Shown here in pieces: positions 13,125-63,296 of a stretch of 64,000 nucleotides of DNA. The DNA is taken from NCBI GenBank assembly GCA_002772745.1, contig PFDV01000005.1, positions 197,609 to 261,608 on the forward strand. Reading direction: 5' to 3'. Under the pieces are notes generated by a model that saw only the letters and a program-made list of their open reading frames with translations, did no database searches and was not told the origin of the DNA. The stretch is from Candidatus Peregrinibacteria bacterium CG10_big_fil_rev_8_21_14_0_10_55_24 (GTDB lineage Bacteria > Patescibacteriota > Gracilibacteria > Peribacterales > Peribacteraceae). Each line of letters opens with the position of its first letter. The first letter of the stretch is position 1. Position numbers and translations under genes: made by a program.

Positions 13125-13192
13125 GCTCAGCAGGAAACACTAGTTTGGTGTTGGCTTAAATGCAATATCCAATGTTTGATTATGGTCCAGTG

Positions 13193-13260
13193 GTGGGTCA
13201 GGTGGGGATCGAACCCACGGCCAACCCCGCACGCGCTTACGCGTTGCGGGGCTGCTCTAC
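13193..13260 (-). pseudogene. 3' half of a tRNA-Lys-like copy broken by a palindrome
   Basis: On the minus strand, GTAGAGCAG is followed by a 27-nt palindrome (CCCCGCA...TGCGGGG arms), then TTGGCC and a T-arm, acceptor strand and CCA end identical to the intact tRNA-Lys at 13497-13571. The first 17 or so bases of the tRNA are missing; the GIY-YIG gene is joined in their place and its stop codon TAA lies within the palindrome. It cannot fold as a functional tRNA. Confidence 0.75.
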
Positions 13261-13482
13261 GATCCAGCGGGAAATATTCTTCGACTTTTTAATGCGAGTT
13301 TCCAGCGAACGAGCTTCCTCGAGAGAATGACAGGGAATGAATTTTTTCAATTCCCATTTCCCGATTCTTTTCGTTGTGTGCGTGTGTCCGTTTGCATGTT
13401 CAAGGAGCCTGCGATCCAAATCGTTTGTGCTACCGACGTAGTAACGGGTTCCCTGGAGAATATAGACGCCAATTTTTGCCAT
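13237..13482 (-). CDS. Small GIY-YIG nuclease next to tRNA-Lys
   Basis: An 81-residue single-domain GIY-YIG protein of the UvrC N-terminal/URI type. Visible catalytic pattern: VYILQ, then YYVGSTNDLDRRLLEH (GIY-YIG tyrosine, glycine and arginine), and the glutamate region LEEARSLETRIKKSK. The start ATG is 14 nt downstream of the tRNA-Lys CCA end and has a TATACT box 8 nt before it, so it has its own leaderless promoter placed directly after the tRNA. The last seven residues (VEQPRNA) are encoded by tRNA-derived sequence. Members of this family may cut branched DNA or act in homing; the target is unknown. Confidence 0.8.
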   Translation of the reverse strand: MAKIGVYILQGTRYYVGSTNDLDRRLLEHANGHTHTTKRIGKWELKKFIPCHSLEEARSLETRIKKSKNISRWIVEQPRNA

Positions 13483-13496
13483 GAGAACGGAGTATA

Positions 13497-13571
13497 TGGT
13501 GGGTCAGGTGGGGATCGAACCCACGGCCAAAGGCTTAAAAGGCCTCTGCTCTACCACTGAGCTACTGACCC
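13497..13571 (-). tRNA. tRNA-Lys(TTT)
   Basis: A complete cloverleaf on the minus strand: acceptor GGGTCAG/CTGACCC, D-arm GCTC..GAGC, anticodon loop CTTTTAA giving anticodon TTT, T-arm GTGGG-TTCGATC-CCCAC, and an encoded CCA. It is followed after 14 nt by the GIY-YIG gene and preceded by two broken tRNA copies. Confidence 0.95.
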
Positions 13572-21101: not shown

Positions 21102-21150
21102 GGGTGAACGATACCACAAATGGCCCCCTGTGTCCGGCGGGAGACTTTCT

Positions 21151-21170
21151 GGAGCGGGATACTGGAGCTT
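21151..21170. repeat. 20-bp direct repeat, left copy, with tRNA-Gly 3' end
   Basis: GGAGCGGGATACTGGAGCTT; the copy at 22179-22198 differs at one base. Together with the preceding T it contains TGGAGCGGGATA, the complement of the last 12 nt of tRNA-Gly(CCC), including CCA. The two repeats bracket about 1 kb holding one ORFan gene. This looks like attachment sites of an integrated element that used a tRNA 3' end. Confidence 0.6.
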
Positions 21171-21171
21171 C

Positions 21172-21990
21172 TTAGGAATCAGGTGACACTCTTTGTACTG
21201 TTCGCGTAACTTCGGGCAGCGGCACCTCAAGCGATTTAGACCAGTCCTTATCCTGTTGTGACGAACGGAATGACACAAATGACTGCATCCGGGGATGATT
21301 GCCCCAGTTGTCGAAAAGCGAATCCGGCACGTGCGTGCGAAGAATTATGCGCGGGGTTCGATCGTATTTCCAGTTCACAGTGTCCGTGTCATCGAGCAGC
21401 TGTTGAACCTGTTTACGGCTCATTGCACCTCGAATATTCGAAAGCAGGACGCCGGAAGCATGGTTGGGCATCTCAAATGCACTTGTGTCGAACCCGTTAT
21501 TTTTCAGATGAGCGACATCATGCAGCAACATGGTATCTGCATCGATGTTCCCGTAGGTTCCTTGTGGAGTTGTGAGGCTTATGCGGTGTCGGATGGATTC
21601 ATCAATATGTCTGCGATATCGTCGCATAAGGGTGACAAAGAGATTGTAGGTTCCCCCCAATCCGACTTGCTCGAAGATGCAATCGACGGCTGCGTCGATG
21701 GGTGGGCTGTGACGACGTCGATTTCCCGAGGGAGAGCCGATTCCTTTCAATGTGGTTTGGTGGAAGATGGCGCTCAGATCATTGCGGATTCCGGTCTCCT
21801 GAAGGACGATTGCTGTTTGGAGATCGAATGCAATTCCCGTGTTCCTATCGGTATCACGAATGCCGGGTAGTGTGTACTTCAGTTGAGTGAGGGATCGGCT
21901 GCGTTCGCCGCTGAAACCACCTGTTTCGCGTACTCGACGATACTCCGCATGAAATTCACTCCTCGGATATCTGACGACTTCTTGGGGCAT
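21172..21990 (-). CDS. ORFan protein of 272 residues
   Basis: A soluble, mostly polar protein (MPQEVVRYPRSEFHAEYRRV...) with no motif I recognise. A segment around residues 140-165 (TTPQGTYGNIDADTMLLHDVAHLKNNGFDTSAFEMPNH) looks like an alpha/beta core. The gene's stop is 1 bp from one copy of a 20-bp direct repeat, and its start is about 190 bp from the other. It lies in a lower-GC stretch. Possibly a recently acquired gene. Confidence 0.55.
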   Translation of the reverse strand: MPQEVVRYPRSEFHAEYRRVRETGGFSGERSRSLTQLKYTLPGIRDTDRNTGIAFDLQTAIVLQETGIRNDLSAIFHQTTLKGIGSPSGNRRRHSPPIDAAVDCIFEQVGLGGTYNLFVTLMRRYRRHIDESIRHRISLTTPQGTYGNIDADTMLLHDVAHLKNNGFDTSAFEMPNHASGVLLSNIRGAMSRKQVQQLLDDTDTVNWKYDRTPRIILRTHVPDSLFDNWGNHPRMQSFVSFRSSQQDKDWSKSLEVPLPEVTRTVQRVSPDS

Positions 21991-22080
21991 ATATGTATTT
22001 AAATCCTACAGATACCATTATGTCAATGGAGCTCTAGGCTAGAGGAAGTGAGAACCAGGCTCATCGGTTAGAACCGCAGA

Positions 22081-22180
22081 TGGCCGCGCCACGTGATTGC
22101 GCGCAGGGACGTAAAGCGACTATGTCGCCACGTCCCACGTAAAATTTGCTGCTCGCTTCGCTGCGCGCAATTTTACGTGG
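22081..22180 (-). repeat. 100-bp structured repeat abutting a tRNA-Gly 3'-end fragment
   Basis: Read on the minus strand it begins CCACGTAAAAT directly after the tRNA-like TATCCCGCT, so that CCA is shared. It contains an ATTTTACGTGG partner arm, a GCGAC-ATA-GTCGC hairpin and an outer arm CTGCGCGCAAT pairing with ATTGCGCGCAG. A second copy (43255-43353) is about 90% identical and has paired changes. The rest of the gap 21991-22338 holds no gene. Confidence 0.85.
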
Positions 22181-22198
22181 AGCGGGATAATGGAGCTT
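22179..22198. repeat. 20-bp direct repeat, right copy, with tRNA-Gly 3' end
   Basis: GGAGCGGGATAATGGAGCTT, 19/20 identical to 21151-21170. Its first bases are the tRNA-Gly 3' end and also touch the 100-bp structured repeat. Confidence 0.6.
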
Positions 22199-22338
22199 AT
22201 TCAGAACTAGAGTGTATCCTACAGAAGTGACTCTGCCCAATGTAGGTACAGGTGAATCTTGTAATAAGAATAATAATGTGATATTATATATATATCCTTA
22301 AAGAGGAACGAATATCGGGCCCAGGTGAATACGACGAT

Positions 22339-22986
22339 GTGGCTACATTGCCGCATTTTGCGTTTAGTAATAAGAAAAATGGCCATGTGATGAGTTGCAG
22401 AACACAAGATAGTGCCGGTGTTAGTGCAAATGTCATGGACGATGGTTCGATTGTCATTATGTATCAAATGAATAAACAGGAGGGAAAAGGTGGACAAGAA
22501 TGTTTGCGATGGCGAGTTAAGGTTGAGGAGAAACGAATCACAGGTCTCATCGGATATAACCATACAATTGGAAAACACAGAAACATGCAGCCTCCGATAA
22601 CGCTACAGGATGTGCTTTCTATGGAAACTGATGCAGGCGGAACAGTCCTCGACAGAATCGGTAAGGAGTTGTTTCTAATACCCAATGAGAATATCAGCCG
22701 GTTGAGTGATGTTAGTGGACAAGAAGTACGTTTGCTCCTTGCGAAGGATCAGCAAAAACACGAGAAGGAACTTGTCTCTGAAGTTATTGGTGATGTTGCT
22801 GATTGGCAACGTTTGGGTTATCAGCCAACACGCGAAGAATGGGATTCAATTGTTAAGAATTGTACTGAGACTTGGTACGGTAATGGGACACAGATTGGGA
22901 GGGCGACTAGGAAAAGGGTGATGGAAACACTGAGGAAGGTGGAGCCGAAACGGTCGTGGTGGGCACGGTGGGCATTGGGAGTGTAA
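22339..22986 (+). CDS. Hypothetical low-GC protein of 215 residues
   Basis: A mostly polar protein starting at GTG 22339, the only usual start in a frame open from 22282; an internal ATG at 22390 is the alternative. The C-terminus (KRSWWARWALGV) is basic and tryptophan-rich. No family recognised. Base composition is lower in GC than the flanking core genes and an AT-rich tract (22280-22296) precedes it, consistent with an acquired gene. Confidence 0.5.
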   Translation: MATLPHFAFSNKKNGHVMSCRTQDSAGVSANVMDDGSIVIMYQMNKQEGKGGQECLRWRVKVEEKRITGLIGYNHTIGKHRNMQPPITLQDVLSMETDAGGTVLDRIGKELFLIPNENISRLSDVSGQEVRLLLAKDQQKHEKELVSEVIGDVADWQRLGYQPTREEWDSIVKNCTETWYGNGTQIGRATRKRVMETLRKVEPKRSWWARWALGV

Positions 22987-23140
22987 AGAAGCCGTGTATT
23001 GGTTTTTTTCTCCAACATTATTCAGGGTGCGTGTTGGTAAAAAGGCGATCCAATAACTCAGGAATAGACACCCCAAGAGGACTTCTTCCGCTTACGTCGA
23101 AAAAGCGCCCGAAACCGAACGCTTACCTTACGAAGCCGGA

Positions 23141-23214
23141 TGGAGCGGGATACGAGAATCGAACTCGCGTCTCAAGCTTGGGAAGCTTGCATACTACCAC
23201 TGTACTAATCCCGC
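23141..23214 (-). tRNA. tRNA-Gly(CCC)
   Basis: Complete cloverleaf on the minus strand: GCGGGAT/ATCCCGC acceptor, anticodon stem CAAGC/GCTTG with loop TTCCCAA giving CCC, T-arm CGAG-TTCGATT-CTCG, encoded CCA. Its last 12 nt recur at 21150-21161 and 22178-22189. Confidence 0.94.
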
Positions 23215-43181: not shown

Positions 43182-43257
43182 GCCACGGTAGCTCAGTTGG
43201 TAGAGCACAGGACTCATAAGCCTGGGGTCGCCGGTTCAATCCCGGCCCGTGGCACCA
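43182..43257 (+). tRNA. tRNA-Met(CAT)
   Basis: Complete cloverleaf: GCCACGG/CCGTGGC, anticodon stem CAGGA/GCCTG region with loop CTCATAA giving CAT, T-arm GCCGG-TTCAATC-CCGGC, encoded CCA. The paired first base (G1-C72) argues for elongator Met, or Ile2 with lysidine, not the initiator. Its CCA is the start of the 100-bp structured repeat. Confidence 0.93.
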
Positions 43258-43353
43258 CGTAAAATCGCGCGCAGCGAAGCGAGCAGAGATTTTACGTGGG
43301 ACGTGGCGGCGAAGCCGCTTTACGTCCCTGCGCGCGATCACGTGGCGCCGCCA
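43255..43353 (+). repeat. Structured repeat abutting tRNA-Met CCA
   Basis: Second copy of the element at 22081-22180. It begins with the CCA of tRNA-Met (CCACGTAAAAT) and has arm ATTTTACGTGG, hairpin GCGGC-GAA-GCCGC, and outer pairing ATCGCGCGCAG/CTGCGCGCGAT. Compared with the other copy, T-A became C-G in the outer stem and A-T became G-C in the inner hairpin, so the fold is kept. Confidence 0.85.
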
Positions 43354-43436: not shown

Positions 43437-43496
43437 ATGTATCACGTCTACCTCATCGAAAGCGAGCCGAAAAGCAGACTCCCCGAGCCCAAGTGA
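43437..43496 (+). pseudogene. Possible truncated GIY-YIG gene near tRNA-Met
   Basis: A 19-codon frame MYHVYLIESEPKSRLPEPK. The first nine residues match the start of GIY-YIG proteins (compare MYYVYVVQN at 63206), but the YIG half is missing. TACAAT lies 8 nt before the ATG, the same position as the TATACT before the intact gene at 13482. The rest of 43354-43726 holds no convincing gene. A chance match is possible. Confidence 0.3.
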
Positions 43497-62854: not shown

Positions 62855-62875
62855 AACCTTCGCCGAGCGAAGGTT
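62855..62875. repeat. Hairpin abutting the CCA end of the broken tRNA-Ile
   Basis: AACCTTCG-CCGAG-CGAAGGTT. On the minus strand it starts with the last bases of the tRNA copy's CCA (CAACCTTCG/CGAAGGTTG). Confidence 0.75.
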
Positions 62876-62978
62876 GGTGGGCGATGGAAGACTTGAACTT
62901 CCGACTTCGACATTACCTGCCTGCCGGCAGGCAGGTCAGTGTCGCGCTCTAACCATCCGCCTGGGCGGATAATCGCCC
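62875..62978 (-). pseudogene. tRNA-Ile copy with palindromes in the D-arm and anticodon loop
   Basis: 104 nt with acceptor arms GGGCGAT/ATCGCCC, CCA and anticodon stem identical to tRNA-Ile(GAT) at 63220. The anticodon loop is cut between A35 and T36 by the 20-bp palindrome CCTGCCTGCCGGCAGGCAGG, and part of the D-arm is replaced by TCCGCC-CA-GGCGGA. The T-stem has changed but still pairs (GGAAG/CTTCC). Not a working tRNA unless the palindrome is removed. Confidence 0.8.
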
Positions 62979-63206
62979 TTTTAGAAATTCTCTTCCTTTT
63001 CCGGTTTTGAGAAATTTCTCACGTTCTCTTGCCTCTCTTTCGTTGGCATATTCCTCTCTATGTACGAGTTTCCAAGGTCCTTTGTTGTTCGTATACGAAG
63101 AAAATCCATCGTTCGCATTATGTTGTATGATTCGTTTCTCCAGATCATTGGTAAATCCTTTATAGAGTTTCCCTTTTGGATTTTGAACAACGTAGACGTA
63201 GTACAT
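62949..63206 (-). CDS. Small GIY-YIG nuclease next to tRNA-Ile
   Basis: An 85-residue GIY-YIG domain: MYYVYVVQNPKGKLYKGFTNDLEKRIIQHN (Tyr, Gly, Arg, His), then EYANEREAREREKFLKTGKGREFLKG, which is the usual end of the family with the catalytic Glu. The last residues (KGRLSAQADG) are read from the 5' end and D-arm palindrome of the broken tRNA-Ile. The ATG is 13 nt after the tRNA-Ile CCA, so it may depend on read-through from the tRNA promoter. Confidence 0.85.
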   Translation of the reverse strand: MYYVYVVQNPKGKLYKGFTNDLEKRIIQHNANDGFSSYTNNKGPWKLVHREEYANEREAREREKFLKTGKGREFLKGRLSAQADG

Positions 63207-63219
63207 CTTGCAAATGAGT

Positions 63220-63296
63220 TGGTGGGCGATTCAGGACTTGAACCTGAGACCTCGACATTATCAGTGTCGCGCTCTAACCAGCTGAGCTAATCGCCC
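63220..63296 (-). tRNA. tRNA-Ile(GAT)
   Basis: Complete cloverleaf: GGGCGAT/ATCGCCC, anticodon stem CGACA/TGTCG, loop CTGATAA giving GAT, T-arm TCAGG-TTCAAGT-CCTGA, encoded CCA. Confidence 0.95.

Follow-up and report, generated by a model that had tools for sequence, protein, structure and literature searches.

Two copies of a repeat lie in the window, the whole 64,000-nucleotide stretch of Peribacteraceae DNA that was analysed, and they raise the question of what kind of sequence changes its letters in complementary pairs and why it stands where it does. Copy 1 comprises 100 bp on the minus strand (positions 22081-22180), and copy 2 comprises 99 bp on the plus strand (positions 43255-43353). 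A preliminary description of this DNA had reported an identity of about 90% between them together with at least two paired changes that keep base pairing, and had taken these changes as the mark of selection acting on a fold, be it a DNA cruciform or an RNA. The coordinates, the strands and the identity all proved correct. Nine alignment columns differ between the two copies, and both compensated pairs are found among them: columns 12 and 83 of the outer stem change from C-G to T-A, and columns 56 and 62 of the inner hairpin change from G-C to A-T (GCGGC/GCCGC versus GCGAC/GTCGC). The remaining five differing columns represent loop, unpaired or indel positions, and none of them breaks a pair of the fold formed by the outer stem and the inner hairpin.

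The folding energies of the 99-100-nt copies lie beyond those of dinucleotide shuffles, both when folded as RNA and when folded as DNA (z -3.4 to -4.3). Both window copies beat the shuffles on the tRNA strand, and copy 2 does so on the opposite strand as well. We aligned 21 full-length copies without using structure and then scored pairing cell by cell; 97.1% of the cells in the outer stem and the inner hairpin were paired. Double changes occurred in 10 pairs, and the 54 double-change cells observed in this set compare with 16.5 ± 2.7 in shuffled data (0 of 500 shuffles reach the observed number) and with at most 14 when the partner column is slid. Additional copies therefore do not break the pairing as often as they keep it. 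When 62 long copies were aligned, likewise without using structure, 1578 of 1684 lettered cells were paired (1507 Watson-Crick, 71 G.T), and 106 were unpaired. Selection for a fold, as originally proposed from two copies, is thus supported by numerous further copies, which come from several genera and stand on various tRNAs.

The unit from which this element is built is a bulged hairpin that reads CCACGT, AAA, stem, loop, stem, a pyrimidine and ACGTGG, followed by a short TGGC..GCCA tail. It is present either in a solo form of 37-61 bp or in a form of 90-100 bp, the one found in the window, which consists of the unit and an inverted copy of itself. The inverted minimal unit corresponds to the inner hairpin, located at 22107-22135 (minus strand) in copy 1 and at 43299-43327 (plus strand) in copy 2, where a single G faces TTT (on the complementary strand, AAA faces C). 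Compared with the solo 37-bp core, the inner hairpin in reverse complement has at most 3 mismatches over 25 positions in 43 of the 63 long copies, with 15 exact matches, while the forward strand, serving as the control, yields 8-13 mismatches in 62 of the 63. Since the inner hairpin matches the solo unit on the other strand, the long form is a unit plus an inverted unit and, in this sense, REPIN-like. We adopted the count of 43 because it derives from a comparison with real 37-bp copies; a stricter script gave 27 of 63, and regular expressions gave 30 and 49 of 63. Among the short forms, the TTTACGTG arm lies within 150 bp downstream in 29 of 54 rows, and a second hairpin is then mostly present as judged by eye. 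A pairing of the TGGC..GCCA tail with the acceptor strand of the tRNA was also considered; inspection by eye indicated that it is not general.

The first three bases of copy 2 are the CCA tail of the tRNA-Met(cat) gene (43182-43257, plus strand), which bears this copy on its 3' end. This junction recurs throughout the family of copies: 80 of the 111 distinct ones share their initial CCA with the CCA tail that a tRNA gene encodes. Of the 63 long copies among them, 44 stand at zero distance from the tRNA CCA, as do 36 of the 48 short ones. The 111 copies were drawn from 127 sequences by counting lengths of 86-103 and chosen lengths from 37 to 61, with 16 sequences dropped; the 127 sequences include some spurious opposite-strand matches of the regular expression, a few of which remain in the counts as misses. 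Sixteen kinds of tRNA carry the element, always in the same orientation relative to the tRNA, and a reversed element was found at none of the 194 tRNAs examined, a sample enriched for element-bearing and GIY-YIG-bearing loci. Several copies without an adjoining intact tRNA still begin on a tRNA-end repeat (e.g., of tRNA-Met, tRNA-Pro or tRNA-Trp) and look as if they had been displaced by later insertion. Near-identical 50-bp copies are present on different tRNAs in several genera. The whole host genome (1.29 Mb) contains three full-length copies, two diverged copies and one rearranged cluster. Four of these six loci adjoin a tRNA, namely Met, Cys, Leu(taa) and Leu(tag); 4 of the 47 host tRNAs bear the element directly, in addition to tRNA-Gly, which bears it by displacement.

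Such a position would also befit a structured RNA, that is, a 3' trailer cotranscribed with the tRNA in which two competing 3' arms control either tRNA 3' processing or a downstream gene. We regard this explanation as unlikely, although several of its features are present. The element is sense to the tRNA and starts at its CCA, copies from different genera resemble one another when they share a tRNA, and the 5' arm can pair alternatively with the nearer TTTACGTG arm, a configuration in which 93.3% of the cells are paired when the inner hairpin is included and 88.5% in the arm helix alone. In a trailer RNA, one 3' arm would pair imperfectly and the other perfectly with the CCA-containing arm, and both of these pairings are kept in many copies. 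Moreover, alignment column 11 of the 5' arm has changed from A to G in four sequences, and both 3' arms follow this change in 4 of 4. The two arms differ in the extent of their pairing: the five bases behind CCACGTAAA match the outer arm perfectly in 86 of 106 copies (mean 4.63 of 5 versus 3.64 shuffled), while pairing of the nearer arm beyond TTTACGTG is weak (perfect in 12 of 79; mean 3.41 versus 3.09 shuffled), so that the second pairing is mostly confined to constant bases. These 106 and 79 rows are those among the 127 in which the arms could be located.

The intermediates between paired states speak against the trailer. With one conserved wobble pair excluded, the 62 long copies contain 19 G.T (G.U) and 26 A.C intermediates; G.U is not in excess of A.C, and a sense-strand RNA is for this reason not favoured. 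These counts are compatible with a DNA hairpin. The antisense strand folds as well as the sense strand, copies remote from any tRNA keep the fold, the direct carriers are few among the host tRNAs, and the carriers vary between genomes. At Rfam gathering scores, no match to the element was found in the window, where seven tRNAs are the only matches. The folded molecule may be DNA rather than RNA.

A covariance model (E 0.1) detected the element in 45 of 74 Peribacteraceae genomes, representing 29 of 40 genera, and many of these genomes contain several copies. BLAST found it in 20 of 59 genomes including that of the host; these 20 all belong to the 36 family members, and the 23 genomes from other families gave no match. 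A class sample of 242 genomes yielded 28 matches under stricter filters, all in Peribacteraceae, and a pattern scan of named genomes, comprising 89 stretches, located the element in Candidatus Peribacteria and Peribacteraceae. Pattern matches in unrelated bacteria, for instance in one Latescibacterota genome, were dismissed as evidence for a wider spread: by eye the remainder of the element is missing from them, a search for adjoining tRNAs gave none, and we put them down to chance or to another repeat. At seven loci on Latescibacterota contigs, the search pattern happens to fall within another repeated motif, one that is rich in GTGCCAAGTG units. One pattern search of viral contigs and one distant phage search gave no match.

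A gene for a GIY-YIG protein of about 90 amino acids starts 26-215 bp downstream of the element in 21 of 123 rows, a number that is probably too low because it derives from one tblastn query (600-bp limit). In the neighbourhood of most copies, no GIY-YIG gene was detected, and the genes of the minority, including one behind tRNA-Leu(taa) of the host genome, form one clade. Behind copy 2, a frame of 20 codons including the stop (43437-43496, plus strand) opens in the same way as the intact genes that follow other copies and then stops; we take it for a GIY-YIG remnant. Two further GIY-YIG genes of the window lie directly behind tRNAs: one (62949-63206, minus strand) follows tRNA-Ile (63220-63296) and is itself followed by a tRNA-end repeat at 62875-62885, and the other (13237-13482, minus strand) follows tRNA-Lys (13497-13571), with a tRNA-end repeat at 13191-13201. 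Pfam recognizes the GIY-YIG domain in both of these genes and in two genes behind the element. The proteins encoded behind the element match the T5orf172 and SegE models weakly, and in sequence, a UPF0213 protein (1zg2; E 0.0017) is the closest relative of solved structure.

The leader and the nuclease go together. In a tree of 64 proteins, the 23 with the element as leader form one side of one branch, opposite 22 with other leaders (support 94/82, not starred), and leader type changes once on this tree versus 19.0 times after shuffling (0 of 500). For this analysis, five rows were labelled by hand as carrying the element leader, their tRNA having been missed by the script or being absent; one row received the label C manually, and a gene at a distance of 789 bp carried no label. 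Eight genomes carry 4-11 GIY-YIG matches each. Among the matches listed, 17 of 30 GIY-YIG loci, themselves part of a longer match list, lie directly behind a same-strand tRNA; in the class sample, which represents mostly other families, 7 of 27 GIY-YIG genes lie behind a tRNA. GIY-YIG genes of other clades found behind tRNAs possess other hairpin leaders that also start at CCA and are by eye of similar build, and tRNA-end direct repeats accompany them as well. Leaders of the CGAAGT type (three loci) and of the TTCGA/CTCGA type (three loci) that precede GIY-YIG genes adjoin tRNAs; by eye, they appear to share a two-hairpin plan in other sequences.

An inverted pair of bulged hairpins is also the form of REP/REPIN sequences that a RAYT (Y1/HUH) transposase moves in other bacteria, and if the same applied here, the GIY-YIG neighbours would be passengers. 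Matches to Y1_Tnp are indeed present in 49 of 70 family genomes. However, their association with the element is weak, as 34 of the 49 genomes with a Y1 match and 10 of the 21 without one contain the element (p 0.11), and some of the latter 10 genomes are 99% complete. No pair of element ends was found at the eight Y1 loci examined, and it is the GIY-YIG clade that the leader matches. We therefore consider a RAYT as the mover of this element to be quite improbable.

Copy 1 does not adjoin its tRNA. It starts 0.96 kb behind tRNA-Gly(ccc) (23141-23214, minus strand) and begins on a second copy of the 3' end of this tRNA. Three 12-bp direct repeats of the tRNA-Gly 3' end including CCA, all on the minus strand, bound two units of about 1 kb (window 21150-23214). 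The first (23141-23152) belongs to the tRNA at the head of the array, the second (22178-22189) overlaps the start of copy 1, which heads the second unit, and the third (21150-21161) closes the unit begun by copy 1. The unit beside tRNA-Gly contains an ORF of 215 amino acids (22339-22986, plus strand), and that headed by copy 1 contains an ORF of 272 amino acids (21172-21990, minus strand). Repeats of this kind are frequent behind tRNAs: 25 of 194 tRNAs are followed within 1 kb by an exact 11-base copy of their own 3' end, versus 0.96 when the ends of other tRNAs are used, and the controls gave 1 upstream and 2 for the reverse complement. At several host tRNA loci (five were noted as examples), 60-130-bp pieces without an obvious gene end in a tRNA 3'-end repeat and hold other palindromes.

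Both the Gly array and the frequency of tRNA-end repeats would be in keeping with relics of attachment sites, as left by integrative elements that enter tRNA 3' ends by means of a site-specific recombinase and whose single-gene units pile up as in an integron or a tandem island. Yet neither unit ORF has a Pfam match, to a recombinase or otherwise, and a recombinase would presumably need a matching site for each of the 16 kinds of tRNA. A closing tRNA-end repeat, tried as a general feature of the element, had to be rejected: within 8.5 kb and with no mismatch it was found for only 2 of 48 copies (control mean 0.35) and not for the other 46. Most copies thus show no integration footprint, and we hold an origin as attachment-site relics to be very unlikely.

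Instead, we favour, with a confidence a little better than even, the view that the repeat is a mobile palindromic element of the Peribacteraceae that is specialised for tRNA 3' ends and associated with homing-type GIY-YIG nucleases. This view rests on the strict junction, the single orientation, the many kinds of tRNA, the inverted anatomy and the match to one nuclease clade. Movement itself we infer. At tRNA-Leu(taa) within one genus, the element is present in two species and absent from two others whose upstream genes can be aligned; in a fifth species, the alignment breaks off before reaching the tRNA, for which there is a separate match, again with no element seen. Sequences past the tRNA cannot be aligned from one species to another, so this comparison does not fix the right boundary.

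The mean identity of long copies amounts to 0.809 within the same genus on different tRNAs (n = 44), to 0.826 between different genera on the same tRNA (n = 24), and to 0.774 when both genus and tRNA differ (n = 878). As far as sequence identity can tell, these figures show that copies have spread within genomes and also that those sharing a tRNA are alike. The similarity of the first two values counts against mobility, as vertical inheritance under a function would also fit it; likeness by tRNA, in turn, fits homing as well as vertical descent.

For a mobile element of this type, the following course of events can be envisaged. The element would attach with its first CCA serving as the CCA of the tRNA, so that the tRNA is left intact, and would head a small unit together with a GIY-YIG nuclease gene of the one matching clade, or with a gene since lost. 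GIY-YIG homing is the best candidate for the mover because leader and nuclease clade go together; the nuclease may cut tRNA 3' ends, and repair would then copy the element in, as in homing. The fold would most simply be the feature recognised by whatever moves the element, and recognition of the folded hairpin by the mobility machinery would keep its base pairing under selection.

Several known systems resemble the element in part. REP/REPIN sequences (BIMEs) are short extragenic bulged palindromes that exist in solo and inverted-pair forms with many copies per clade, and all of this applies to the element of the Peribacteraceae as well; unlike them, it is bound to tRNA 3' ends and tied to a GIY-YIG clade, and no tie to a RAYT was found. 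Free-standing GIY-YIG homing endonucleases of the T4 Seg type are likewise small genes that adjoin tRNA genes, but in the present case tRNA and nuclease are separated by a folding repeat, and copies of it without an ORF are spread over many tRNAs. The attC sites of integrons form asymmetric hairpins with bulged bases, as the element does, and serial units at a single site are seen in the window at 21150-23214; in contrast to attC sites and to tRNA-integrated islands, the tRNA end itself is duplicated, and most copies show no closing repeat. We know of no constant CCA junction in the repetitive hairpin elements of mitochondria, which reside in organelles and consist of other sequences. What they share with the element is that they are small, dispersed, hairpin-forming repeats (PMC2800124). 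The Peribacteria genome paper reports 46 tRNA genes as well as short repeats close to the origin, and its text contains no word beginning with transpos, palindrom or integrase (PMC4736985). A full-text literature search found no description of the element. We file it between REPINs and GIY-YIG homing elements as a member of neither, since the link to a RAYT was looked for and not found and homing is an inference.

The preliminary description contained neither the location on tRNA 3' ends nor the alternative pairing of the 5' arm, and it did not mention the inverted units or the association with GIY-YIG genes. A folding repeat that sits exactly on the ends of many tRNAs and travels with a small DNA-cutting enzyme suggests a selfish mobile element of an undescribed kind. 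It is conceivable, though we put this forward tentatively and at somewhat less than even confidence, that there is a distinct class of mobile elements in which a GIY-YIG gene with a folding, REPIN-like leader homes into almost any tRNA 3' end, supplies the CCA, thereby sparing the tRNA, and breeds nuclease-free copies; within the bacterial class of the host, several leader families of like anatomy, each paired with a separate nuclease clade, would then live in this manner. The copies described here provide a ready set of natural variants with which selection on a DNA hairpin can be tested against selection on an RNA. Large islands classically insert at tRNA 3' ends, while the present case concerns a tiny repeat on 16 kinds of tRNA with a strict fold and one nuclease clade; if our reading is true, it would be a minimal selfish element that persists in a reduced genome without harm to its host.
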